Made by a program: the position numbers and the translations under genes
In this document: positions 8,190 to 64,000 of the stretch, one piece after another
Layout: every line of letters begins with the position of its first letter
How positions within the stretch are numbered: the first letter of the stretch is position 1
Source of the DNA: Pegea sp. RAD2-039
Taxonomy: Eukaryota; Chordata; Thaliacea; Salpida; Salpidae
NCBI GenBank assembly: GCA_034620365.1
Contig: JAQGEQ010000289.1
Location: forward strand, 398,240 to 462,239
DNA length: 64,000 nt
Reading direction: 5' to 3'
Notes under the pieces: generated by a model
Database searches by the model: none
What the model saw: the letters and a program-made list of their open reading frames with translations, nothing else
What the model was told of the DNA's origin: nothing

Positions 8190-10430
8190 AGAAAAATATG
8201 AGTTAGAAATACAGAAAGCAAAAGATGCAACAACTAACAATGTAACACATGGTATTTCAGTTGTCCTCAAAGCATATAACAGTGAACAATTACAGAGAAT
8301 GTTAATAATATAAAAAAGGAAAAATCATAGTTTAGAAATGGCAATATTATAACTTCTGCTTGAACAACGCGAGTGACTTCGACATGGCAATGTCTGATGG
8401 CAGCTGGTTCCATGTACTAATTGTACGGTACGAGAAAAATTTGCTATGACCAATGTACTAGGTGATAGAGGCTTATTAAGATGTAATGTGTGTCGTCTGA
8501 GCTGATATAACTTGAGGGAAGGACTAATAGAAAAGAAATCATCAAACTGAATGTCAATTAAATTGTAGATAATTTAAAAAATAAGAATTAAGTCGTATTT
8601 AATCCGTCGAATTTCCAAAGTATCTAAATTGAAGAAACTGAGACGATTATGATGATTTATAATTATCATATTTAATATTAAGTTTCCTGCATACTAATCT
8701 TGTAAATGTTGTCTGAATAGATTCGATTTTTTGATATCACTAACTTGATATGGCATCCATGTACTGACATTGTATTCAAGAATTGGACTTACGTACAATT
8801 TGAAGGGATTAAAAAGAAGCATGGATCCTTAAAATTAAAGGTCTTTATACTAAGGTAGACAAGATTTACAGATTTTCCAAAGATTTTGGAAACATAATTG
8901 CGCCATTTAAAGTCAGATGATAGAGTAATGCAAAGGTCTAGGACCGAAGATACTCGTTGAATAATAAATCTATTGATGGAATATTGGTTCAAGCAATTTA
9001 CAGCTGGTTTACGAGAAAAAGTTATAAGTTCAGACTTTGTGGGCTGGATTCTGAGCTGCCAATTCGTAGACCAGTTTTCTACAGTGTGTAGTGCAGTTTG
9101 AAGTTTTGAAAGATTACAAGATAATAGCTTGATATCATCTGCATATACAAACACACTGACATCATCTACTGCTACTAATCTTCTGATGAGGTCTTTGATG
9201 AAAATTAAAAAGAGAAGGGGACCCAGAACAGAACCCTGAGGAACACCACTAGTGATTTGACTAGGAGTAGATAAAGATCTTTCTACAAGAGTTTGTTGGA
9301 TTCTACCTGATAAGTAATCTTCAATCCACTGTAAGATAAAGATGTTGATTTTTAAGCAAGGGAGGTATTTGAGATCTCGCCTTAAGCTTGTGATTTATGA
9401 AACCAAAAAATATTTTCTTGCTAGGTGAAGATAAAACTGCACTTTCTCTTCCTAAATAGAAATTAGAAATAGATTTCTTGTAAACTATTCAAAGAATTTT
9501 GCACAGAGATTTGATGGAAGGGTCTGCTTTAATTTGCTTGATTTTTTAAATGTTGTAAATTACTCAAATATTTGAATGAATCAAATTAGCGTTTTAACGT
9601 TCATGAAAAAGTTTGAATTCAATCATGTTGTAATTGTTAAAACTAGAGGTTACTTTCGATCAACACATATCAAGTTATCAGGTTTTGATGTGATAAGAAG
9701 ATCCAAAGTATTACCACTAACTTGGCTAGGAAAAGTAACACTCTGAGATAGATTATTGGCATTGAGGAAGTTTACAAAGGCATGACTTAGAGTAGCTTAT
9801 AGGATTGTTGCTATCCAATGATTTTCTCATAAATGTTGAATTTGGGTTATTCCAATCAATTTTATTAAAATTTAAATCCTCAAAAATATATAACTCAGGA
9901 CACACAACATTCTTCAAAATGATCAATAAGGCCTTAATAGTAACCTCATCATTAATTTTACTGGGTAGCTAGATAAAAAGCGAAAAAATTTGAGCTTCCA
10001 GTAATGAAAATTGAAAGCGATAATCCCTAATCTGAATTTTATGGGTCATTATAAGTCCTGAGAGATCAAAAGAGCTTTCAATCTGAAAACTTTGTTGATA
10101 ACCGACTGCGTGTTGAAGAACATACCTGATGTAAAAGAAGAATTGTCTTTTAGACGCTTGTGAGATTTGGTGATAAGCTTCAGTGAATTGATATATTTAG
10201 TTGAAAGAATTATATTCTCAATTATGTGCGGAGAGAAACTGAAAAAATTTAGATGTGGTTATTTACTACTTCTGTTTTTTCAAAAAAAACCTTGACAATT
10301 CTCAAACCCAAGGTGAACCTCAAACTTTACATTGAAATCAGTTCCTTCTGATTTCGATTATATGCCTCTTTTAGAAGACGCTTATTTTCTTCGAAACCTT
10401 CATTTACGTTTATGATAAATAAATAAAAAA
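8190..10430 (-). mobile_element. Decayed non-LTR retrotransposon (endonuclease + reverse transcriptase)
   Basis: Read on the minus strand, the copy shows in order an APE-type endonuclease remnant near 9840-9890 (DLNFNKIDWNNPN, matching the family's GDFN block), then reverse transcriptase. The RT core reads SGVPQGSVLGPLLF at about 9230-9270 and the catalytic FVYADD at about 9140-9155, then ALHTVENWSTNWQLRIQPTK. The C-terminal RT part runs down to about 8340. Stops and frameshifts interrupt it, so it is inactive. The family has many 3' fragments in this window. Clade is not certain; a CR1/L2/jockey-like element is most likely. The 5' limit near 10430 is approximate. Confidence 0.85.
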
Positions 10431-22766: not shown

Positions 22767-23014
22767 AAGTATCGAACTCAGCAGCTATTCTCCTTTCGAC
22801 AATTCATCAGAAATATTTTAGGAATGTAAAAGAAAAGCTGACCGAAACATTCCTTTATTTAGAATACAAAAATTTAAATTAAAAGTTACTTACAAATAAA
22901 ATAAAAATCAGTAAAAAAAGCAGTTTTCAAATTTCAATGATTTCATTTTTATCAAGATGTCATCTGCAAACGATAAGAAGTTTCTACTGAGTCTTGTCAT
23001 AACTCGAAGTAGTT

Positions 23015-24590
23015 GATTCATTCAACTTCAAATCTTCAACTAACTTCAAATCTTCAACTAACTTCAAATCTTCATCTAACTTCAAATCTTCAACTAACTT
23101 CAAATCTTCAACTAACTTCAAACCTTCATCTAACTTCAAATCTTCAACTAACTTCAAATCTTCAACTAACTTCAAATCTTCAACTAACTTCAAATCTTCA
23201 TCTAACTTCAAATCTTCAACTAACTTCAAACCTTCATCTAACTTCAAATCTTCATCTAACTTCAAATCTTCAACTAACTTCAAACTTTCAACTAACTTCA
23301 AATCTTCAACTAACTTCAAATCTTCATCTAACTTCAAATCTTCAACTAACTTCAAATCTTCAACTAACTTCAAATCTTCATCTAACTTCAAATCTTCATC
23401 TAACTTCAAATCTTCAACTAACTTCAAACTTTCAACTAACTTCAAACCTTCAACTAACTTCAAATCTTCAACTAACTTCAAATCTTCAACTAACTTCAAA
23501 TCTTCAACTAACTTCAAATCTTCAACTAACTTCAAATCTTCATCTAACTTCAAATCTTCAACTAACTTCAAACTTTCAACTAACTTCAAACCTTCATCTA
23601 ACTTCAAATCTTCAACTAACTTCAAATCTTCATCTAACTTCAAATCTTCAACTAACTTCAAATCTTCAACTAACTTCAAATCTTCAACTAACTTCAAATC
23701 TTCAACTAACTTCAAATCTTCAACTAACTTCAAATCTTCAACTAACTTCAAATCTTCATCTAACTTCAAATCTTCAACTAACTTCAAACTTTCAACTAAC
23801 TTCAAACCTTCAACTAACTTCAAATCTTCAACTAACTTCAAATCTTCAACTAACTTCAAATCTTCAACTAACTTCAAATCTTCATCTAACTTCAAATCTT
23901 CAACTAACTTCAAATTTCAACTAACTTCAAATCTTCAACTAACTTCAAATCTTCAACTAACTTCAAATCTTCAACTAACTTCAAATCTTCAACTAACTTC
24001 AAATCTTCAACTAACTTCAAATCTTCAACTAACTTCAAATCTTCAACTAACTTCAATTCTTCAACTAACTTCAAATCTTCAACTAACTTCAAATCTTCAA
24101 CTAACTTCAAACTTCAACTAACTTCAAATCTTCAACTAACTTCAAATCTTCAACTAACTTCAAATCTTCAACTAACTTCAAATCTTCAACTAACTTCAAA
24201 TCTTCAACTAACTTCAAATCTTCAACTAACTTCAAATCTTCAACTAACTTCAAACCTTCAACTAACTTCAAATCTTCAACTAACTTCAAATCTTCAACTA
24301 ACTTCAAATCTTCAACTAACTTCAAATCTTCAACTAACTTCAAATCTTCAACTAACTTCAAATCTTCAACTAACTTCAAATCTTCAACTAACTTCAAATC
24401 TTCAACTAACTTCAAATCTTCAACTAACTTCAAATCTTCAACTAACTTCAAATCTTCAACTAACTTCAAATCTTCAACTAACTTCAAATCTTCAACTAAC
24501 TTCAAATCTTCAACTAACTTCAAATCTTCAACTAACTTCAAACCTTCAACTAACTTCAAATCTTCATCTAACTTTAAATCTTGTTCTCAA
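23015..24590. repeat. 18-bp satellite array, about 87 copies
   Basis: The unit is AACTTCAAATCTTCAACT on the plus strand. Because 18 is a multiple of three, both strands stay open for long stretches (KLVEDL repeats on minus, SNLQLT on plus); that alone is not evidence of coding. The left half (to about 23910) mixes variants (ATCT for AACT, CAAACC, CAAACT), while the right half (about 24110-24590) is almost homogeneous. Short-unit breaks at about 23911 and 24110 shift the frame. The array sits between the poly(A) signals of the convergent integrin and receptor genes. Confidence 0.97.
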
Positions 24591-24605
24591 TTTCAGCAAA
24601 TAAAT

Positions 24606-24611
24606 TTTATT
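24606..24611 (-). terminator. Polyadenylation signal of the minus-strand receptor
   Basis: AATAAA on the minus strand, about 110 nt after the stop codon at 24720 and just before the satellite array. Confidence 0.5.
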
Positions 24612-24719
24612 CTTAGTTTATTTGGAAATCGATTTCTCTAATGTGTTACATGAATTAAAAATGAATTATTTTTTCAAATCAACTTGAGTAAGCATTTTAT
24701 GAAAATTTAAAAGAAAAAT

Positions 24720-27700
24720 TTAAAGTTTTTGGAAGTTGTGAAGACTTAGTTTCTTTTGTTGCATCATCAAATGAGCCACTTGACGGCAAACGCCATATTG
24801 TCTCTGAAACTATTAATCAAGAATTTTGTTGAATATCGAACTTCAACTCACAAAACTTCCGATGAAATCTTTTTTCCAACTTCTTAAAGACCTCACCACT
24901 TCAAATGCATTTACATCTTCTTCATGTTGGATTTTCATCCAAATGATCATACCAGCACAGATCACTCCTGGCCATCCTGATAAGTCCCTGCATCCCGAAG
25001 ATGAAATGATACTTTATCAGTTGTTTGATTTTTATCACCTGCAATGAATCATCAGAGTCGACTCTGCTTTCAGCAAACTCCCAATTTTCTCAATGGTTTT
25101 TAAGACATCTTCCGGGAAGATTTGATCTTTTGGATCATTAGCTTCCAGTAGAGTTTGAAAAACTTGCTTCTAAAAGTCAATTGAAGTATAATAAAGTAAA
25201 ATAAAAATAAAACAAACCTCAGAAGATTGAGATGAGATGAAGAAGATGGAATCTTTATTTTGATCACTGATTCTTCTCACTTTCACCTCCTTATACTTAA
25301 TACAACCTTCTTGAGGCCACATCTTCATCGACTGCTTCTAAAAGATGATTTCAAAGCAGCTGGCTCCTAATAAGCTACTTACATCAGACGTAAACATAAT
25401 CACGTGGTCAACAGAAGCATCCAGAAGTTGCTGAAAGAAATCCGTAGCTCGAGCAGATGATGAAGATAAAATCAGTCGTCGTCGCTTTGATGTCGACCAA
25501 TCAGTAGTCAGATACAACCAGCTCACGTCATCATCTGTTACCAAGCAACTAATCAGATGTTGATCAGATGCAAGTTACCCTACGTGATAAGATGATGACT
25601 TCACATTGATCACGGTTCAATGACATTTGCCGAGGCATTAAATTCAAGCTTTCAAATTCCGTTCGTATCTCATCTTCAAATCTTCAAGAAAGACATAGAT
25701 GAAAGTCATGATGATGTCACTGCCTAGCAACTTACTTGATGGAAGACTTCATCACCATCTCAATAACGAGCTGATGAAGTAGTTGAAACTGTTGCTGTTG
25801 ACAACAACATCTTATTCACGCTACATCTTTTCACTACTTACATAAGTATCACAGAAGTCGAATCCTTGTGTCTTCAGTTGGGAGATGACTTGATGAAAGT
25901 CGACAGCAGCTTCTTCCTTCAACATCCAACGTAGTTGATCAAGAGCGATCAATAGTCCCACTCCGGTAGTATCACTAAACTCATCTTTGTCATAACTTCT
26001 AGTAAACAGTCCTATCTTCCTCACTTGTAGTATATTCCGATTGGATGTTGATCCGTGATCTTCATCATCCATTCATGAATCTTCATCAGATGGAAACCTG
26101 TGATTTTATCCGATCTTTTCCACTGAAACTCTTTGATTTTTTTAATCTGTTGAAATTTGTATCATTTGATTCAACCAATCAGCAGCCAGTTATACTTGTT
26201 GATGAGAAGATATCAAAGAGTATGTCCTGAAAATGAAAATATGATCTTCAACTTCATCATCTAATCTCATCTGTCCGGATGAAATCGCTTCTTCAATCTA
26301 CAACGACCACTCAACCAACATTTATCAGATGAAGACTCACAAACCAGTTGGTCTTCATCGCGACCGGTTACCATCACAACCAATCTACAACCAGCTGCAT
26401 CCGTGATCTTCCACCAATCATCAGATGATGCTTTCGGTAAAATGAAGAATTTGGAGTCCTTTAAATGTTTGATTGTTGAAGTTTGTAGAAATCAATTCTG
26501 AATCACCTGAATCCTGGGAGCAATTGAGACCTTGAAAAGAGCTGTTGATTCATCTGATTGAAATAATTTGAAGAAAAAATCAAGAAAGAAATTTCACAAT
26601 TACTAAATCAAATCTCACCTAATCTCTGATCTTCATCCGGATTTCTTCCTTCTAATTCATCCATTTTTTCTCGAAGGATCTAAAAATTTTATTTTTTAAT
26701 TTCACAGAAATTTGAAATTTGCACAATTGACAAATCGCGAAGTGACTTTTGTGACGTCATCACCTGAAATTGTTGCTTTAAATCCTTGAAGTCATCTTTG
26801 CTTAACTCTTGACAAACTTTGATGAAATCTTTCTTCAGAATACGATTAGAGAATTGGATCTCTTCACTTTTAAAGTCTTTCAAAAATCACAAAACTATTT
26901 TAACATTTAAAGACCTTAAGATTGTTACAACCTCGTGCCCCATCATCAGCGTAAAAGATGCTTGTTGGGGATTCAATCTTCCTGAGAACATTTCAAGATG
27001 ATCAGAAGATTTTACAAAGTAGTTTTGACAACTTACTTCAGTTTTTTATACATCGCCCCGACAACAAACGCAACAACCAATAAGAAGCCGATGATCATAT
27101 GAAGCAGGAACTGCTGGTTGTTATGGAGAAGATGATTTGATGAAGATGATGTAGGTTTAAGAGCTGGAAATAAATGATTAATTCGGAATTGTGGAAGAGT
27201 GCTTGTTATACTTCCACAGTGGAGTGGTGATGTGAATTCGCCTGTGATATTTCCACAACTCAATAAAGCGAATGAGAGTTTGTAGATCAGATTTGAGTTG
27301 GTTTTGTTGAACACAAACCATCCACTATTACCAGTTTTGTGAAAAGAGACTATTAGGGAACTATTCGAGATAATTTGATGAATCTAGAATTTGAAATCAT
27401 CCCGACTAAGATTATCATCTTTAAAAGTAATTGATTAAACTAACTTTGAGATATTTGATGGAATATCTGTTGACATCGTGAGGTAAACTGAAGTTAATGA
27501 TACAGTTTCCCTGTTCAGTCTGATTAATATCTGTTACGTTGACAGCTTCAAGTGATTCTCCTTTTGTTTGAAAGATACTTTTAACTTCAACTTCTCTTCG
27601 CCAATACTTTGGTGTATATGTCAACTAAATTACAATGAAACTTTTGCTGATATTCAATCTTTACTTCTTACTTGAACAGTATAAACTGAAGAAGGTCTTA

Positions 27701-30700
27701 GATGTTGTAATCTGATAGAAGTTTGGTTTGATGAGAAAGGACCAATCACTAAATTATTTCGATTATCAAACACATTGATGACGTAATCAGATGATGAGTA
27801 GGTAAAGTCATCAAAGTTAACATCTAATTCTGTTTCTTCACAAACTTCTTCATCCACTTGAGATTGCTCTAGTGCTCCAGCTGATGAAAATGAGATTACT
27901 GATGGTGATGAATATTTAAATCGTTTTAGCCAACCAATGAAATGACAAGATGAAGATAGTCTGTCAATCCTCCCTCCTATCACTTCACATCTTTCAAGAT
28001 CTTCCATTTCAAATCCAAGATTCGAATGGAAATCATCTTCAGATATCTCTACAAACACACATCTTCAACTTGTAGATAAAAACGATCTTTGAAAATTGAT
28101 TTCAGATTACCTGAATCCAGTATAAAAGATTGAATTGTTTTCTGGTAGCTCTCAGCGATGCAGGACACATTTGCTCTCCATCCCAAAGATATAAGATTGT
28201 TGAAAGAGATAGAACTAGTTGAAGTTAGCTGAGATGTAGCTGTTTGGATTTCAAAGATTCTTTGATCTTTGTCAACTGATCTGTTATTGATCATCCAATG
28301 GATAGAAGGAAGGGGACGCCCTCTAACAAAACACGTGATATTAGCTTCTACTGCATCCACTATTTCGCTCTTTCTCGATTCGATCTTGGCTAGAAAGGGA
28401 ACCGCTGTAAAACGATTTTATTGAAATTTTCAGTTTGGAAAGAAAGGTGAAAAGAGATTTTCTAAACTTCAAAAGATCTAAAAGAGATCATTTAAAAACG
28501 GTTTGGAATTTCCAACCAATTCTTTGATAGATAATAGATTTGTTTGTGTTTGAAATGGAGCTAATATCAGAGATTTATACAAACTTTTAAGAGATGTTTC
28601 TAAAGTTCTCAGTATAGTTGAAAATCCTGAAGCAGATAGTTGAGAAAAGACACAAAAATATTTGCCATCATCATCTTTGGAAGGATTAATAAAATGAAGA
28701 GTTGATAATCTGTATGTCTTATGCTCTTCATATTGCTGATACAATGCTTGATTGATGTTCGATGTAACTGAGGATCCATTCCTTGTAAATGTTGACAGTT
28801 AATTACAAAAACTTCAATGAAATTTGTTATTTAGCTTTAAACAGTAATAATGAAGTTGCTACTGCAAACAAATTAACTCTTCAATAAATCTTTTCTCAGT
28901 TTAATAATCACCTCATCCAAGCAGCTGTGAAAGAAGAATTTCCAAGAACAACACAATTCACCTTTTCAGTTTTGCTTCTAACAATCACATGAGACTTTGA
29001 TATTAAACCAATACCAGCTTCTGCAAAAACACATTTTTGTTTGAATTATGTTTAATTGAAGTCTTTCGCTGACTCCGACAATGATTTATTTTTGAGATGA
29101 ATTTTTATAAGATTAATAAAACAGTTTATAAAACTTATAAAAATTTTTACAAAATTCATTACATAATCAAAACCAATCTACAATAAATTATATTTAAAGT
29201 AAACTGTTATTGCAACGTAACAAAAAACTTAAACGAAGTTTTATGATACATGAAACGAACGTAATTTCAGTTTGAAATCTGTACTTTTTATGTTTTAAAC
29301 TTCGATAAAACCTTCTTACTTCTTCTACACTCAAGCTGTTTCGTTTCGATTCCAGTCAAGTTTCCACAACTTACTAAAGCAACTGTGAATTTGTAACTGC
29401 AGTTGATGTGAGGTGTTTGTAGTTCAAATACATTCTCATCAATACTGCTCAGTGGAATCAGTTCAAAACCACTCGTTGAATAATCATGATCAAGCAAATG
29501 CTGCTCAAAAAGACGAACCTTGAAAAGTAGCGAAAATATTTGAGCATTTATTAGATCTCAAATTTGAAGTTTCTAGAAATATTTAAATGATTATTTTACA
29601 AGTTCAAGCAATGTTAGTATGGCCAGTTTCAGCCGAGAACGATTATGCATATATTTGCCGGGGCAGAAGATATGAAGATCCAGTTGTCGCCCATGCAGCA
29701 GGATTCCACGCCAACAAGGAAATGTAGCGGAACAGAAGGACTGATGCAGCTACACCCAACTGACGTCACAGGAGCTTCTAGAAAGACACTGAGTACAACG
29801 ACGAGCTGCCTACGAGGTTCCAACTCCGGTTTTAAATTCGGAGTTTTGCTTCTCCTAGAAATGTTGTCATGAAACTGACCAACAAGGTCCTTCTACTCTG
29901 GTTTTTATGAAATTTTCTTGTCGCAAATATGTGTCGCCCGGGCCACAAGCTCAATAAGCTTTGAAATATTATCAACTTTCGTTTAAAACTTCAAGCATTT
30001 AAAAATAGAATGAATATTACAAACAACTAGTTGAAATTGTATTAAACTAACTTTGAGATATTTGATGGAATATCTGTTGATATCGTGAGGTAAACTGAAG
30101 TTAATGATACAGTTTCCCTGTTCAGTCTGATTAATATCTGTTACGTTGACAGCTTCAAGTGATTCTCCTTTTGTTTGAAAGATACTTTTAACTTCAACTT
30201 CTCTTCGCCAATACTTTGGTGTATATGTCAACTGAATTGCAATGAAACTTTTGCTGATATTCAATCTTTACTTCTTACTTGAACAGTATAAACTGAAGAA
30301 GGTCTTAGATGTTGTAATCTGATAGAAGTTTGGTTTGATGAGAAGGGTCCAATCACTAAATTATTTCGATTATCAAACACATTGATGACGTAATCAGATG
30401 ATGAGTAGGTAAAGTCATCAAAGTTAACATCTAATTCTGTTTCTTCACAAACTTCTTCATCCACTTGAGATTGCTCTAGTGCTCCAGCTGATGAAGATCA
30501 AAGAATTAAATGTGATGAACACGAACATAAAAAATTTACCAACCTATAAATGTACAACGTTGGCGAGAAGGACTTGCTAAGGGAACAAAAGCTATTATTA
30601 AATTGTGGTTTGATATTTTGCTACATTTTGTTTAAAGTGATTAAAATGTTTTTTTTATATTTGTTGAAATACGATTGATCAATCTGCAAATTACTTCTTA

Positions 30701-31454
30701 GGATATATCCGTGCTTCTCTAAGCATCTTTGCCGAGATTTCTCTTGGTTTCTGGGTAGGTCGATGACAAAACTTCTTGGAGGTAGATATGAAACATCTTT
30801 AAAGAGAATATTCAAATAAAAATCCAAATAAAAGATGTCGCAGATCATTAGAAAGTCTGATATTTTCTGTTTTAATTTCTCAAATTTTATTCTAAACCTG
30901 AATTCAAGACAAAGTCAATTCTTTTCAACATTTGTTGTCCTCTTGCTGCACACGAAAGTTTTATTCCTTTTCCAAATGATATCGGATTATGGATGACAAA
31001 GACACTTTCTTCAAACTTCTTATCACTTGTTCGATGAATTGTAAAGATGTTATCATTTCTCTCAATCACTTGCCCATTTATCATCCAAGATATCTTAGGA
31101 TGAAGTGTACCTCGTGTTGAGCATGAAATATTGTCTGATTTCCACATTTGAATATATTTGCCATTTTTGGATTGAAGTTGATTGGAATTAACTGAAAATA
31201 ATTAGATGAGATCAAGTAGAAGATTTAAGATTTATTTTCATTGAATTGAAATAAAAGTTTTCAATTTTTGTTGAAATAATCTAATCATAATAGCTTTATA
31301 GTTTATACGGATTTATATAAACTTTCAATGTTGATAATTTACTTTAAACTAATTATTTTTATTTATTAAATTTATTTACAAATATCAAGTTATGAAACTC
31401 ACCAATTAATTGTAAGTTAAAAAAGCAAATAACGATTTTTATAAGTTTCTTCAT
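24720..31454 (-). CDS. Receptor protein-tyrosine-phosphatase-like protein with duplicated Ig/FN3 ectodomain and two inactive PTP domains (29 exons, 1308 aa)
   Basis: Exons, 5' to 3': 31454-31403 (signal peptide), 31191-30898 (Ig), 30796-30695, 30487-30279, 30231-30052, 29518-29320 (FN3 block), 29020-28912, 28781-28585 (Ig), 28404-28111 (Ig), 28048-27935, 27880-27672, 27624-27445, 27383-27212 (FN3 block), 27163-27037 (TM), 26981-26932, 26876-26764, 26679-26619, 26541-26507, 26458-26345, 26297-26196, 26146-26025, 25974-25842, 25794-25736, 25681-25605, 25534-25383, 25337-25218, 25169-25039, 24987-24852, 24803-24720. Phases agree throughout. The layout mirrors the plus-strand gene at 54858-63972 but has an extra Ig-FN3 set and no lectin domain. 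In D1 the P-loop HCSAGVxRTG is replaced by YYNDTTGVG (Y1010 on), losing Cys and Arg, and the WPD loop is missing. D2 keeps HC (1234-1235) but has Trp1241 in place of Arg. The protein is probably a type I pseudophosphatase receptor. The 27935 edge and D1 exon edges are the least certain. Confidence 0.85.
27436..27889 (-). repeat. FN3 exon-pair duplication, copy 1
   Basis: Two exons plus their intron (27445-27880) are almost identical base for base to 30043-30495. The FN3a peptide is identical and FN3b differs at one residue that I can see (Val for Ile). Neighbouring exons of the two ectodomain halves are strongly diverged. Confidence 0.93.
29640..29850 (+). repeat. Dispersed repeat, copy 1 (in a receptor intron)
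   Basis: About 200 bp match 54360-54562 at roughly nine bases in ten. It contains TGACGTCA and ends in a terminal hairpin, AACTCCG then CGGAGTT, around TTTTAAAT. It lies in the intron between two FN3 exons of the minus-strand receptor. It is unclassified and may be a non-autonomous transposon. Confidence 0.85.
30043..30495 (-). repeat. FN3 exon-pair duplication, copy 2
   Basis: Partner of 27436-27889, in the membrane-distal half of the receptor. Similarity includes the intron, which indicates recent duplication or gene conversion at DNA level. Confidence 0.93.
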
Positions 31455-54562: not shown

Positions 54563-54857
54563 AATTTGTTTATAATTTTGATATTAAAAAATTTGTAAAT
54601 TAATTAGATAAATTATTAAGAAAATATTTGTTGAGAATTAGATGATTACTTCAAAGCAAACAAGTCAGGTTCCAATATTCATTAAGTTTTGTAAATTTTC
54701 TAAATATTCTTATTTAGTTCACTTCTTCACTTTTAGATATTTGTTTCAGGATTTTATAACTTTTTTGTACAAATCATCAACATCTTTCAAATAATAAAAT
54801 AGTTTGAAAATAAAGTAATCTTATGAGTCAAGGACACCTTCAAAGTTCTTTGTGAAA

Positions 54858-57800
54858 ATGGAAGAAAAGGAAATGTTTCTTCTTCTCTTCATTTACTTTA
54901 TTCTAACTTCATTTAGTGGTAAGTGACAAATTATATTTGATCAACTTTTTATTTGTTGTAATTAATAAATAAATTTGCGCCAAACTTGTAATCGTTTGAA
55001 GCCTAAAAACACTTTGCTAAGTATTAACAACTGCAAGTTTCTGTATTTTAATTATTTGTTTTATAAAAATTCGATGTAAAAACTATTTCTCAGAATAATT
55101 TTCTTTTTTGTCTGTAAATTTATAAACTACAAAATATCAGGAAATCTTTAATTTCGAAATCTTCAAATGTCTGATGTTTTATTAATAAATACAAAGTTGA
55201 AGTATACATCTAAACTTAATTAAACCGATTTTAACTTACATTATATGGCTAAACTATATAAACCTGGTCAATGTATTTATTTGATCATTACATTTGAATC
55301 ATTGGATATAAATTCTAAAAACTTTTTACTATTTCTATTTTTAGCAATATTGACAAAAGTAACTCATCAAAACATTAGTTTGTTATTTATATTAGTACTA
55401 ACTGATCATTTTAATCGTAATTATCAAGAAATTCAACAGTTTTCAAAACTTTTAACAAAATAAATTATATTTTAGTTGCAACTGAGAAACCAACAACCAT
55501 CAAAGTTGCTTCATTCGGAAATAATTTTTACACTTTTTATAATAAAAGTTGTAACATTAGTGAAGCAAACAAAACTTGCAACAAATTTGATGGATTCCTC
55601 GCTCATGTTAAAACTAACGAAACTCAAACTTTCATCAATCAACAAATTGTTGAGTATAAATTTAACCGCTTTTCTAATAATACGAAAGAATGGTTATCCG
55701 GATTTTGGATCGGATTACATCAAGAAAATGATAATAATAGCATCTGGAAATGGTCTGATGGAGAAAAGGTTCTCTATAAACATTGGAACACGAATACTGA
55801 TTGGATAAAAGAAGAAAATATAAATCTTAACTACAAGGGTGAACCAAATGAATCAAATGAAAAATGTGTTAATATCGCGTTAAGCTCAAAGTTTTTTGGA
55901 TATTGGTTCGATGAAAAATGCTCAAAGAAAAACAAGTTTATTTGTGAAAATAGTAAGTTAGCCTAAATAAGAAAGTTAATTAAAATATAATTTCGAAATA
56001 AACAGTTTACTTAAAAAGTTTCATTTTCAAATTTTAATGTTTCAAATCTTTATCAGAATCTGCAAGTGGAGTTATTTCAAGATCATCCATAATTATTACA
56101 GATAAATCCAAAAGCATCATTTGTAGGATTTACGGAAACAATTCCTATAGAGTAGAATGGAAAAGGTTTTTATATTTCAAATTTTTATCCAAATATTTAA
56201 AAAGTATCAAATATCATTTTAATTTTCTGTATTTTTGACAGAAATGGCAAAACTATAACAACTGACAAAGAACAACAAATTTATCAACAATATAAAAATA
56301 AAACAAACTACAAAGTTTCAATTCTTCATTTTGTGAATCCTTCCATTGAAGAAGAAAGAAGATATAATTGCATCTTCCATCAACAAATGACATCAGGGAG
56401 TTTAGAGATCATCAAAAATTTATCTGCAAATGTAAAAGGTTTGATTAAAGTTTTTACTTCTTGAAAAAAGAGGATTTTATAAAATCTGAATCTTATATTT
56501 GAAGTAAATTCAGAAATTTGAAAAACTTTTTCTTTTCAAATTGCAAATTTACTTTTTTAGATATAAAATAAATTTATAAACTTAATATTTAAAGAAATTC
56601 AAAATTTCATTATCAAAATTATAAATCTAAATTATCACTTCAAATTTGTTCGTTTATTTGTAAAAGTCAAACTGCTCATTATCAATTTAAAAGATTAAAA
56701 TAAATCAAACATCCAAAATAATCTTCATCAAAAATTCTTGGAGTAAATCTTCTTCAAAATTATTTGTTTTATTGATAAAATTTTATTAATTTCTATAAAC
56801 TATCTTGAAGTGGAATCAATTTTGTTGATATTTTTTTAGTTATTTCTTTTCTATCTAAAATCGAAACCAAAACTCTTGAAGAAGTTAAAGTTTTGGAATC
56901 GAAGAATATTTCATGTTCTGCAAAAGGTCGTCCTCTTCCATCAATATCTTGGAAGATTAACAATCAGTTGTTAGAAAAGAATGATAAAGTATTCATCATC
57001 CGAAATACAAATGATGAGAAGCTGATGACAGCAACAAGTTTGATTTCAATTATTAATCCAATTTCTTTTCCACCAAAATTAGCGATTATCTGTGTTGCCA
57101 AAGTAAGAAATAGAATTGGATCTGTTGAAGAAAATAAAACATTTTATCTTAATTCAGGTTTGTCAAATTTCCACAAAAATTGTAAAAATCCAAACAACTG
57201 ATCTGTTGTTTATCTAAATCTCTTGAAAAAGATTTAATTTCAATTTTTCTTTCAGATGCAGAAAAGCTAAAACCAAAAAGTTTCAAAGTTTTAATCGAAA
57301 AAAATAATGAAAATTCGAAGAAAGTTTGTGAATTGAAAAAAGGAAGTTTTCAAAGTAAGTTAGTTGAAAAGTTCCTCTCAAATTTTTATCATTTATATTT
57401 TACTCAAAGATTTTTCTTCTGAGTTTCAATGTTGTTTTATTGGTGAGTTTTTTTTACTAATAAAATATTTTTGTTGATAAATTAATTAATTATTTATTCA
57501 ATAGCTGCTTCACTTGAACAATCTCAAGTAAATAGAAAGATTTGTAAAGAAAATCAAATATTACTTCAATTGAACGACTTTACATTTTCATTAACACAAT
57601 TTAATTTAACTGTTTATGATAATCAAAATCAACTTGTTTCAAATCTTCAATCTAAAAAATCGATAGTCAAAATAGAGAAGTTGGAACCTCAAACTAACTA
57701 CACAGTTAAAGTAAGAAGTTGTATAAGTGAAGATTTATCAACTTTTTCACTTTTAAATCTAATTTTTAGGTGCAATATACACCAAAATATTGGTCAAAAC

Positions 57801-60800
57801 CAATTCAACTTGAAGAAATATTTCAAACTAAAGGGGGATTTCCCAATATTGTTGACGTCACTGGAATTGATTCAACTGAAGAAGGATTTTGTAGAGTAAA
57901 GTTCAAGTTATCTGAAAATCTTGATAATTATCAAATTGAATTTGTTCAAGTAAGTTAAAATTTGAAAAGTATTTGAAAGTCAGATTAAAAAACAGTTTAG
58001 TTTTAAAAGATCGTTTACTAAACTAAATATTTAAATCTTTATTTCTTAGATAAATATCAAATCTGTTAATGTTTCAAATCTTGACGAAAAAGTGAAAATT
58101 GAAGACTTTGATGAGGATCAAAAGATGTTTGTGATCGGAAGAAATGTCAAATGGAAGAAACTTAATTTTTCATTCAGTTTGATGAGTTGTGGAAATAAAT
58201 TAGGAAAAGAAACTGAAAATTTGATTTGTATAATAAGTACAAATTTTGATTTATAAAATTTGAAATCAAATTTGAAAAACTCAAAAATCTTTTTTCAGAT
58301 TCTTCTAAAAAGTCCTGGAATATTATGATTGGAATAATTATTTCTACATCTTTTACATTCTTCTTCTTATTATTCTTGATAATGTAATTTGATAAATTTT
58401 TTAAATAATTTTGTTATTTTGATTATTTCTTTCTAGATATCTCATCAAGCGAAAAACAAATGTTGAAAAAAATCTTGAAAATTCTAAATGTGAAACGGAT
58501 GTTGCTTTTGGTAACTTTTAAGAAATTTCAACAAAATTCAAATTGTTAAAAGTTAAAGTCAAGAAATATTTTCCTACAAAATTTAAACAATAAAATTATC
58601 TTGAAAATCATTTTAAACTAATTTCGTAAACTTGTTTTTTATATAAATTCTAAAAATTTATAATTAACTTTGAATAATTTTTAACTAAATTATCAAAAAC
58701 ATAAAAATTTTGTTTATTTAAAGAAGCAGAAGAAGAACATATTTACATGAATATCATTAATATCAAAACTTCATTATCAAGTACCTCAATTTTAAAAAAA
58801 GATCTCTTACAAGCTTACACAGATGCAAGAAAAAAGAACTTCCAAATCCACAACCATCAATTCCAAGTATTTTTAGCTCAATTTAAATTTTAATTAGTAG
58901 ATTGCAACATTAAATCAAAAGTTTCAATTCAAACCAAAAGTCTGAAGTTAATTTACCAAATAAGTTTTTTAATAATTAAAACTTAAAGTTTTTAAACTCA
59001 ACCAACAAGCTCCAAAACAGAGGAATCTTATTTTTATCACCTTAACTGAGAGTTTAAAGTATACTCAGTTGAGTGAATTAAGTATAAACAATTTTGAAGC
59101 TAACTAACCTTAATTCTGTTGCAAGTAGTTTATCTATTTTGAAAAACTATTTAGAAATTAAAAAATTTTTGTAGAATTTGAAACAAGAGCTTCGTAGATT
59201 GGAATTTTCATTTACTTTTGGTAAAAACATCCAAAACTCGAGAAAGAACCGATACCAAAATATTCTTCCTTGTGAGTCTTCAATTTTCTATTATTACAAT
59301 TTCGCTGATTTCAAATTAGAAAGTCTTTTGAGAGCTTGTTGCTCTTCATAAAGATACTTTCCTTTAATATTTAAGAAATGATTTGAGATATAATTAATTG
59401 CAAGCAACCAGCTATAAAACTTCAAGAAATTTTGTAAATACAAATCTTAATAAAACTTTCTTAAAATTTTCTGAACAAATTTGTTGATAAAAACTGATTT
59501 TCTGTTAATTTAAAATCCAATTAAAAAAAAAATGTAAGACTTTTATTATAAAAGTTAAAAGTAATTTGATTTTTTTGTATTTACATCAAATCAAATATCT
59601 GAAATATTTCTTTCATCAAGAAGTTGTTTGTTTGATTTCAATGATTAATCCAAAATCTATTTTATTGTAATCTATTTATTCGACTGATGAACAAGTTGGG
59701 TTGGTTGATAATCCATTTAGTCCGAATCGTCGTCGAAGATACGCTCTATTACGTCATCTTTCAAACGCGAAAAAGTATCTTCCTCAAATCTATGTAAATA
59801 GTGCCACTATCTTGTGGCTACTTCAGAAGAAGACCACGGTAGTGAAACTAGACAGAAAAGCTGACCACAATATCACTGTCCTAGATCATTAGGCCGTGTC
59901 ACCGAACATTTGGTCCAAATAATGGATACCAATGTTCACTATGATAAGATCTTATGTGAGGAAGTGTGGATGTCAATTTCCTTTCATCTGCTTACAAAGC
60001 TTCAAACAAAACTTCCTTAGATCTTTTTAATTAAACTTTTAATAGAAATATTTGAAAATATTTTTCAATTAATTTATTTATTAAACTGAATTTACTTCCG
60101 AAAAAATTTCTTCAAATTTCAATTATTTAAAACTTTTTAATTCCAAAAACTCATTCATGAAATCTATTTTTATCCAAAAACTTCAAAACTTTTCTTTCAA
60201 TAAAAATTTTCATCGAATTTCCCATTCAGTTTTTTATTCCTTATTTTAGTAGTTTGAAATTTGGAAACAAAAAAAAGTTTCAATTTCTTATTATTTCCAA
60301 ATTAACTAATTGAAAAATCTAGAAATGAATTTACAGATGATGAAACTCGTGTTGTGCTACCTACTCATGGAGACTCAAATATATCCGATTACATCAATGC
60401 AAGTTGGATTGATGTAGGTTTTTACAACAATTTTGTTGTTTTTGGGAATAAATTCACTTGTACCAGGGTTATAACATCAAAAAAAGGTTTATTGCAACAC
60501 AAGGACCCACAAGAAACACCACAAAAGACTTTTGGAGAATGATTTATGAAACTGAATGCAGAGTAATCGTCATGTTGACAAATCTAGTTGAAAATAAAAA
60601 GGTTGAAATTTAAAAATGAAATCAACAAAACTGAACATTGATAATTTGTTTCTATAAATTCCAACATTTGATTTAATTATTACTTTTATTTATCATTCAA
60701 GTTATCTGCTTTAAATGAACAAACAACTAAGAATGTGTTTCAAAAGTTGTTTATTTTTTTAGCTTTATTGAAATATGTTTAAATTCTTGTAAGTTTATAA

Positions 60801-63800
60801 AAGAACTTTTTCTTTAATCAAAAACTCTTTTATTACATCTTCTTCAGACAAAATGTCAAAATTATTGGAATGAAAGTACAGAAGAATTTAAGGTTGTTGT
60901 GAATTATACTGAAGAATATGACTTGTCTGTAGTCAGAACAATTTCATTGAGTTTGAAACTTCAAAAAAGTAAAGTAAGTTTTTATTTCTTTTCAATTTAC
61001 TCGTCTAGCAACAAACGTCGATTTGTAAACTTTCGATTTTGTGTTAAGTTTTGCGTAAAAACTGTTGATTGGCGATTGAGTCATAAAAATTAGTTTTACA
61101 AACAAATCTTATGTATGGTCGTCGAAGGTGTTGAGGACTTACCTATTTCTAGCACATTGACTTGTGAAAACTCCTCGACCAACAACACTGAGTCAAAAAT
61201 ATCTTTTCTTGAAACTAATCTTGTGTTTGGTGGTTGAAGATAGTGAGAACTCATCTGATTTTAGCAGTAAAACCATAAAAACTGTCTTAATGTCTTTACT
61301 TTGAGTTCAAAAAAGTGAAATATTAAACTGATAAACGTAAAACCAACTTAAACTAAAGCAAATGGTTTTTAATTCTAGAACAGAATTCAAAGTAAAATAA
61401 TCAACTTAGTAAATTTTTAGATTTAATCATCAATTGATAAATTCAACTAACAAATTAGTTTGTTTATCAATAAGCATACAAATAATAAATCTTTTATAAT
61501 TTACAGGAAAGCAGAACAATTAAACAATTTCATTTGACATGTTGGCCAAGTCACGGTGTTCCTGAAAGTACAAGTTCCATTTTACAGTTTCACAAACAAG
61601 TTATGAGATTTGCTGACTCATCAGAACTTTCAAACAAGCCTGTTGTAGTTCATTGCAGGTAAAAACACTTAAAGTAACAATCTTAAATCACTTCAACTCA
61701 AATGTTTATTTCTTGTGCTTCATGAAAAGTGCGGGAGTAGAAAGAACTGGGACTTTTATTGGATTAGACAACTTAAGTTTAATGTTGAAAGATAAAGATC
61801 ATGTCGATTTCTACCAAACTCTGTATGAATTGAGATTGCAACGAATGGATATGATTCAATCTATTGTTAGTATTTGAGACACAATTTAAAACAATTGGTT
61901 ATTATAAAATTTGTTACAAGCTCATTTTTCTCAATTTAAAAATATAAAATTATAAATTTGTGTTTACAGAAGCAATATATATTTTTGCACAAACTGATTG
62001 TAGAGCTTCATGTTCTTGGAGATACTCAACAATCTTTCCAATCATTCTCAGATCTTCTCAAAAACGATAAAAAGTTGCTTTAATCTCAAAAATAAATCAA
62101 TTTAAAATTTGTTCTTCTTCACCCAGACTTAAAGATCATATCAAAAAAGAGTTTGAAAAATTGGATTTGATTCCACCAACAAATACTTTACAAAAAGAAG
62201 CTCTCAGTCGCGATGTGAAGATCTTTAACCTGGATCCATCTGTCCTGCCTTGTCAGTTAATTTTAAGTTTTAAGCTAAATATGGTTTTATCTACAATTAA
62301 CAATCAAGTCTTGTTTTTGAGAATTAATCACAAAATTATTAATAGATGATAAGAATCTGTTTCGCTGTTCTTCTCGAAGTGAAGATTTCTACTTAAATGC
62401 CTCCATCATCAAAGTATTTCTTTATTTTAAATTTGTTGCTTTAATTGCTTTAATATCAGACTTTCTTTTTGTTATATAATTATCATTTTATGTAATTATT
62501 CACTTTTATATTGTATGGGGTTAATGAACTACTATTTATTACATCTATTTTTCTGTATATTTCTATCTTATTATATAATAATCATATTATTTGTGAGAAT
62601 ATGTGAAAGATTCTCTTTTCAGGCACCCTTCTTCAAATTATTTCATTTCATTTATAGAGTATCAGACAAAGAAAGATAATTTTATCTCAACATCCAGTAA
62701 AGTCAACAGCAAACAATTTCTTCCAAATGATTTTAGAGAATTCAATTTCTTATGTGATCACTGTAAATGATGATGTAAGTTTTATTTCAAAATTATTTTA
62801 ACGAATTTTTATTTCAAATTGAAATTTACAAAAATAAAATAAGCGTTCAGCTGAATATTTTGAATTTAAATTAAATCAAATATTGACTTTTAAATATTTG
62901 AGTTGTACTTTTATGTAGATTAGTATCTAAACATTTTGAATTCTTCATTTATATTTGTGATAAAAACACTTTTGCTATTAATAAATTAATTATTTTCGAT
63001 AACTTGATTTTAAAGGAATGTTCTCTTATGTACTGGCCCAATGATAAACAGAAAGTGAAACAACTCGGAAATGTTCAGATAGAATATCAATCACAAGTTG
63101 CCAATGAGAACTTACTTATCAACAGTTTCATTGTAACTTCAGACACGAAGGTTGGTTCCTTAAAACATAAAACTATTAATGAAGTAGAAAGTTTACTTTT
63201 TATAAACTTTTCTAACTAAATGAATTTTCTGTAGCCAAATGGAAGTCTTTTAAAGCAATTTCAAATCGATGGCTTAAATGATAAAACTTGGAATGCAGAA
63301 AAGAAGAAAGGTTTGAACAACAGAATCTACAGTTTAGTAAAAGAAATTGAAAATATTTGGACTGACAGATCATCAATACTTCTCCAGTGCTAGTCAGTTT
63401 AAGTTTGTGGAATATGATCAATTTGTTTCTAAATAATTTTGATATTAATTTACTTTTAAAGGTATTTATGTTTTATTGTAGTGAGTTTTTGGTTTGATTT
63501 TCTACTTTTTATCTTTAAATAACTTTTGTAATATTACAAAAATGTCTACTAAATTGTCGACTTCGTCTTTAACTACCAAACAGACAACTGATTTCTAAAC
63601 GAGATAAAGCCTCTACCCTATCAGCTTTAATATAATAAAATGCAGCTGACAAACTTTACTTCTAAAAAAATTAATCTTTTTCCACTATAAAGCGATGGAT
63701 CAAGTTACGGAGGTGTGTTTTCAGCTCTTTTACAAATATGTGAACAAGTAAAAGTGGATAACCAAATCGATGTATTTCGAACAGTGAAAGATTTGAGAGA

Positions 63801-63972
63801 TAAACGACCACTGGTGGTTCGAACACTGGTTAGTTGGGATTTTCAAGACACCCAACACCTAGACATTAAAACTTTCATAATTTTCTAGGATCAATACGAA
63901 CTTTGTTATCGAGTGTCAGCTCTAATTATTGAATCTCTTCAAACTTATGTCAACTTTCAACCTCTCAAATAA
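54858..63972 (+). CDS. C-type lectin/Ig/FN3 receptor protein tyrosine phosphatase (26 exons, 1261 aa)
   Basis: Exons: 54858-54918, 55476-55952, 56057-56165, 56242-56438, 56840-57157, 57256-57354, 57505-57710, 57770-57949, 58050-58236, 58299-58383, 58437-58510, 58724-58866, 59175-59271, 60337-60413, 60467-60601, 60848-60973, 61507-61658, 61730-61865, 61970-62073, 62127-62251, 62346-62413, 62658-62774, 63016-63150, 63235-63392, 63693-63828, 63889-63972. Domains: signal peptide (1-20); C-type lectin (about 35-178) with FWIGLH, WKWSDG, a Ca/sugar-binding EPN and [15 protein letters not shown]; Ig (180-281); Ig (282-387); FN3-like block (421-611); TM (about 619-641). The tail has [23 protein letters not shown] and the P-loop [10 protein letters not shown] (Cys907, Arg913), but WPS (870-872) where PTPs have WPD. 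D2 (about 990-1261) has QCYDGSSYGG: Cys1188 kept, Arg replaced by Tyr1194. It would be a cell-surface receptor whose phosphatase is weak or substrate-trapping. Confidence 0.9.
59640..60000. other. GC-richer insert in the receptor's intron 13
   Basis: This stretch of the 1065-nt intron between exons 13 and 14 is much less AT-rich than its surroundings and has a 63-codon plus-strand ORF (59701-59892) with RRRR and no PTP similarity. It may be a transposon fragment or an alternative exon; I cannot assign it. Confidence 0.4.
62484..62655 (+). mobile_element. LINE 3' UTR inserted just before exon 22 of the receptor
   Basis: The segment matches the 3' UTR of the window's LINE family (TGTAATTATTCACT..., GAGAATATGTG..., CAGGCACCCTTCTTC) in sense orientation. 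Its tail of repeated ATTTC units runs straight into the TTTATAG acceptor used by exon 22 (62658). Confidence 0.8.
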
Positions 63973-64000
63973 GATGTGAAAGTCTTCGAATCTTCATCAT

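Follow-up and report, generated by a model that had tools for sequence, protein, structure and literature searches.

The window, a stretch of 64,000 nucleotides, represents the right end of contig C19 (positions 398240–462239) in a genome assembly of 105.7 Mb and 387 contigs, which its genes mark as that of an animal. A gene for a lectin-containing receptor protein tyrosine phosphatase (RPTP) lies at positions 54858–63972 of the window on the forward strand. Exon-by-exon rebuilding from the raw sequence gave 26 exons and 25 introns with a frame that remained open throughout. All 25 introns had GT-AG borders, and the coding sequence (CDS) of 3786 nt encoded 1261 amino acids followed by a stop codon. 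The initial annotation had described 25 in-phase junctions and a CDS of 3786 nt, and our rebuild gave the same CDS length and junction count. A spliced aligner queried with the rebuilt protein returned the same protein, with identical ends for 25 of the 26 exons and a difference in exon 26 of the stop codon only; because the aligner received the rebuilt protein as input, this agreement is a consistency check. Two near-identical copies of the window gene (W), referred to as copies B and C, contained all of its exons at full length and gap-free, with one stop each. Elsewhere in the window, a minisatellite-like region in which several reading frames stay open over long distances (NFKSST/LKLVED repeats) was observed at 22984–24641, and a reverse-transcriptase-like open frame, judged by eye to belong to a LINE-type element, at 8789–9394 on the reverse strand. 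TTAGGG repeats occurred in the genome, some of them at contig ends, a pattern that argues against an arthropod or nematode source; searches for COX1 and for a bdelloid spliced leader gave no match.

All exons described here lie on the forward strand. Exon 1 (54858..54918), which is identical in copies B and C, carries the start codon and the predicted signal peptide and ends in phase 1. The entire C-type lectin domain (CTLD) is encoded by exon 2 (55476..55952), a single phase 1-1 exon with EPN at aa 143–145 and WFD at aa 164–166. Ig domain 1 is encoded by exons 3–4 (56057..56438) and Ig domain 2 by exon 5 (56840..57157), followed by a fibronectin type III (FN3)-like region in exons 6–9 (57256..58236), a transmembrane (TM) helix in exon 10 (58299..58383), and a juxtamembrane segment with a 12-residue motif containing Tyr 672 in exons 11–12 (58437..58866). 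The first phosphatase (PTP) domain, D1, with its 10-residue signature, spans exons 13–19 (59175..62073). The second domain, D2, which reads QCYDGSSYGG at the signature region, spans exons 20–26 (62127..63972) and includes the stop codon.

A Pfam search of the spliced protein, a check proposed with the initial annotation, detected Lectin_C at aa 47–178 (E 1.6e-14; 55 bits, cut-off 22.6), Ig_3 at aa 192–260, I-set at aa 296–343, and two stretches of Y_phosphatase (PF00102; E 3.5e-114), the better of which covered aa 733–965 in D1. Based on hydropathy alone, one TM helix was placed between the ectodomain and the PTP domains, with the most hydrophobic 19-mer starting at aa 622, and the second most hydrophobic stretch, at aa 6, corresponded to the predicted signal peptide. 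Thus, the domain series given in the initial annotation (signal peptide, CTLD with EPN, two Ig domains, one TM helix and tandem PTP domains) was recovered, but its "FN3 repeats" were weaker than stated: the single fn3 match (aa 450–502) scored 20 bits, below the cut-off of 25, and the number of FN3 units is not settled. A profile of the FN3-like region built from six family sequences matched eight PDB chains at non-significant E values (0.02–0.63). These chains belonged to ROS, angiopoietin-1 receptor, NCAM2 and fibronectin, all of which we take to contain FN3 domains. The lectin exon folded alone from its single sequence gave a mean pLDDT of 35.3, too low to speak for or against the lectin fold.

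By predicted domain content, the window gene is one member of a multigene family with the order CTLD-Ig-Ig-FN3-like-TM-PTP-PTP. Besides W, the CTLD-linked members are copy B (C19:252–262k), copy C (C77:301–311k) and six divergent genes: g19a (C19:108–119k), g250a (C250), g249a, g249b and g249c (C249), and g257 (C257). The six divergent members were modelled without signal-peptide exons; the g257 model contains one stop in D2, and the g249c model reaches the edge of the DNA examined. Four paralogue models were submitted to Pfam (two full-length, with two PTP stretches each, and two cut after D1), and all four contained Lectin_C, Ig and PTP matches, with no fn3 match at E 0.01. In a D1 tree that included 12 of the 17 other PTP loci (those on C1, C213, C18 and C341 and at C249:1392837 were left out, as was the PTP-less relative g250b), the family and a further model, g249d, formed one clade of 10 rows with support of 99/97. 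The tree flagged long branches, none of which belonged to the family. The LAR-type gene of this genome (L024; LAR match, E 8.6e-279) fell outside the clade, and the family is, in terms of its D1 sequences, distinct from that gene. The model g249d was rejected as a CTLD-linked member: its lectin exon at C249:949k is 5954 nt from its Ig exons and other Ig2-/FN3-like exons lie inside that gap, so it was excluded from the count even though its D1 falls in the clade. The ends of contigs C19 (W) and C77 (copy C) overlap by 9.36 kb at 99.6% identity in opposite orientation (window 54641–64000), indicating that the assembly probably breaks in the window gene and that W and C may be haplotypes of one locus, in which case the nine loci would be eight.

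Several relatives and neighbouring features were also observed. The gene g250b (L035, C250:190000–199900) is a lectin-Ig-FN3-like-TM relative with stops in the Ig2 region; a PTP domain was not found at this locus, and the gene would represent either a truncated receptor or a pseudogene. A very divergent relative on the reverse strand of the window (24723–29020) has the order Ig-Ig-FN3-like-TM-PTP-PTP, with no lectin exon found and IYYNDTTGVG in place of the D1 signature, and its model contains one stop. Another pair of Ig2-like and FN3-like exons lies near 31183–30267 of the window. Lectin matches form a large cluster at C249:898k–970k, together with some that are Ig-like, and one PTP locus (960820) was found within it. 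In a search for paired kinase receptors, none of the PF07714 matches listed was on C250 or C19, those on C249 were at 635–641k, and one at C59:20657 was less than 2.5 kb from a lectin match on the other strand.

We then considered whether the lectin exon belongs to the PTP gene. If the lectin exon belonged to a secreted lectin encoded by its own gene, and the Ig exons were the start of the PTP receptor, the fusion would be a reading artefact. The intron between the lectin and Ig exons of the window gene is 104 nt long and in phase 1, and its counterparts in the six divergent CTLD-linked models are 67–289 nt long and all in phase 1, which argues against separate genes. In a profile search of the whole genome, 9 of at least 102 Lectin_C matches were followed within 10 kb by a same-strand PTP exon, which lay 3.2–4.9 kb downstream, and accordingly 9 of the at least 27 PTP loci found were linked to a lectin, in identical order, against a chance expectation of 0.13 (both the PTP and the lectin counts are lower bounds, with Lectin_C scored for 150 of 204 candidates). 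In the orientation controls, a PTP exon lay upstream on the same strand of four lectin matches, downstream on the opposite strand of one, and upstream on the opposite strand of none. The nine loci share an origin by duplication and so do not count as nine separate lines of evidence; six of them are well diverged from the window gene (387–437 identical residues of 1002–1130 aligned). Certain observations would fit a separate lectin gene: the other 93 of the at least 102 Lectin_C matches were not followed within 10 kb by a PTP exon on their strand, and the g249d model linked its lectin exon to Ig exons across a join that is doubtful at best. Furthermore, a transcript that kept intron 2 would run into a stop after four residues (SKLA), so that a soluble lectin form is possible, and a short lectin product could arise in this way. 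Given the conserved intron and the repeated order, we regard separate genes as very improbable; the lectin exon and the PTP receptor very probably form one gene, and the single-gene architecture proposed in the initial annotation was upheld. A single exon bounded by phase-1 introns is the usual form of a module spread by exon shuffling, and the lectin probably joined the receptor in this manner.

The lectin exon was more variable than its surroundings. W and copy C differed by 33 substitutions over 9.36 kb, distributed as 11 of 477 sites in exon 2, 7 of 3309 sites in the other exons and 15 of 5574 noncoding sites (exon 2 versus noncoding, Fisher p 1.7e-6). In exon 2, eight codons changed the residue and two were silent, compared with two and five, respectively, elsewhere. 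W and copy B differed at the same 11 sites of exon 2; copies B and C are identical there, so the two comparisons count as one observation. In three pairs of close paralogues, the lectin exon was compared with the upstream flank (which may include the signal-peptide exon) plus the next intron. Divergence was 17.8% in the lectin exon versus 4.6% in this DNA for g249a and g249c (p 1.2e-13; Ig1 2.1%), 10.8% versus 4.5% for g19a and g250b (p 5.6e-5; Ig1 2.4%), and 8.2% versus 4.8% for g249a and g249b (p 0.018; Ig1 2.7%); two of these pairs share g249a, and one includes the PTP-less g250b. Thus, the lectin exon diverges above nearby noncoding DNA in four close pairs. By direct pairwise codon alignment of paralogues, the dN/dS ratios of the lectin in the pairs other than W and C were 0.65, 1.01 and 1.12, and synonymous sites were raised as well, so that the lectin peak may be due to gene conversion alone. 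The g249a–g249c pair was a mosaic in which the FN3-like and TM segments diverged more than the lectin. The divergence of the lectin would reflect either diversifying selection or gene conversion, which are not separable from these data.

The phosphatase domains of the window gene departed from the common forms. The active-site Cys and Arg of D1 (HC-x5-R) are kept in W, with a change of Gly to Glu inside the loop (VERTG instead of VGRTG), and the general acid motif is WPS instead of WPD in both W and copy C. WPDHGVP together with HCSAGVGRTG was present in D1 at seven of the nine CTLD-linked loci (copy B and the six divergent models), and W and C had WPSHGVP with the altered 10-residue signature. 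Copy B, which is 99.1% identical to W, has the common D1 forms, so W and C probably acquired their motif changes recently. In D2, Cys-x5-Arg was absent from all seven members readable there (W, B, C, g249a, g249b, g19a and g250a; the count was made without g257 and g249c). With WPS and VERTG in D1 and no Cys-x5-Arg in D2, the window copy is probably a poor or dead phosphatase. In a PTP that lacks the WPD aspartate, turnover is strongly slowed and substrate binding can remain.

The WPD and VGRTG changes could represent early decay rather than function, and the window copy would then be a decaying duplicate in which the D1 changes begin pseudogenisation and the lectin peak reflects gene conversion between paralogues. 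The presence of WPS and VERTG in two of the three near-identical copies, the relative at 24723–29020 with neither a D1 signature nor a stop-free model, and the mosaic divergence between g249a and g249c are consistent with this possibility. However, the exons are gap-free in all three copies, with one stop each, despite the substitutions between W and C, and we consider decay of the duplicate possible but the less probable course.

Between the TM helix and D1, the motif [IV]Yxx[ILV] was present 62–66 residues ahead of NRY in all seven distinct CTLD-linked sequences, and YxN was found in five of the seven. The YxN form is similar to the sites bound by the Grb2 SH2 domain, and Yxx(I/L) looks like an ITIM or an endocytic signal.

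A complete Ca2+/sugar site in a CTLD consists of EPN or QPD plus WND. The site of the window lectin is incomplete, with EPN but WFD in place of WND. Among the family lectins, EPN was found in W, B, C, g19a, g250a and g250b, paired with WFD, WYD or WID, whereas g249a, g249b and g249c had EPS with WND, and g257 had neither motif; EPN and WND occurred together in none of the aligned lectin domains. Judging from these motifs, sugar binding by the family lectins is plausible. The initial annotation had further proposed that the receptor would couple glycan recognition to tyrosine-phosphate signalling. This proposal presupposes that the phosphatase is active and the sugar site functional, and is not supported as written, given the WPS, the VERTG and the D2 without Cys-x5-Arg in W and the absence of EPN with WND from every aligned lectin.

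The lack of a complete site would also fit an RPTP of the ordinary adhesion type whose lectin binds no sugar and instead has a structural role or binds protein; protein, not sugar, is the ligand of many CTLDs. In the W–C and g249a–g249b pairs, however, the lectin was the most divergent of the segments compared, which a passive spacer alone would not predict, and in g19a–g250b it was the highest by nonsynonymous rate among the three segments compared there, the lectin, Ig1 and the FN3-like part. The g249a–g249c pair runs opposite, the lectin not being the most divergent segment there. On balance, an ordinary adhesion receptor of this type appears unlikely.

We consider it likely that the window gene encodes a type I receptor with a signal peptide, CTLD, two Ig domains, an FN3-like stalk, a TM helix, a juxtamembrane tyrosine motif and two PTP domains, with a putative role in recognition and a decoy-like window copy. 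The family as a whole is most likely a set of putative recognition receptors, immune or self/non-self. The lectin would bind a surface ligand, which could be a glycan or else a protein from a microbe or from another cell, and binding would cluster or exclude the receptor. In members with an intact D1, this would change the phosphotyrosine level both at the receptor's own YxxI/L motif and in kinase targets nearby, with D2 serving as a putative regulatory pseudo-domain. The window copy would most likely bind the ligand, and perhaps also substrates carrying phosphotyrosine, while turning them over inefficiently, and could act as a decoy, a scaffold or a dominant-negative partner of its active siblings. 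The likely setting would be immune or self/non-self recognition.

LAR-type RPTPs (PTPRF/S/D) have an Ig and FN3 ectodomain, one TM helix and tandem PTP domains, and share this Ig/FN3-type arrangement with the window family; we know of no lectin domain in LAR. PTPRA and PTPRE have a short ectodomain without lectin or Ig domains. PTPRE was the best PDB match of the window D1–D2 (E 3.7e-105), and D2 of the matched chain reads VHCSAGAGRTG, whereas the window D2 has lost such a signature.

Regarding precedent, the initial annotation knew of no classical RPTP family with an N-terminal CTLD. This doubt was fair, but a sea-urchin protein, PTPRLec, is said to be a receptor PTP with a lectin domain for which a role in immune defence has been suggested, so the lectin-RPTP architecture is probably not unprecedented. 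On this description, PTPRLec and the window family would be alike in being receptor PTPs with a lectin domain. The name PTPRLec was not found in the literature searched, and none of the titles and abstract starts among the literature matches listed described a lectin-domain receptor PTP. What probably goes beyond a precedent of the PTPRLec type is that the family is expanded, that its lectin is variable, and that it has one probable pseudophosphatase member. Expanded CTLD receptors discussed as innate-immune have been described in placozoans (PMC6321704). These differ from the window family in that 28 of 36 CTLD receptors in Trichoplax sp. H2 are seven-helix GPCRs, and "phosphatase" occurs zero times in the main text of that paper.

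The window family combines recognition and phosphatase domains in one chain, and its recognition domain is strongly variable among close copies. On vertebrate immune cells, by comparison, inhibitory lectin receptors rely on ITIM motifs to recruit phosphatases. A hypervariable lectin, whether generated by selection or by gene conversion, joined to tandem PTP domains with active and disabled members, might constitute a phosphatase-based system of self/non-self or pathogen recognition in which negative signalling is built in rather than ITIM-recruited; we offer this reading tentatively and with more doubt than the receptor role itself. If the genes are expressed in immune or epithelial cells, they would provide a direct, testable invertebrate case of phosphatase receptors used for recognition, for which the D1-intact and D1-changed siblings form a natural set for comparison.
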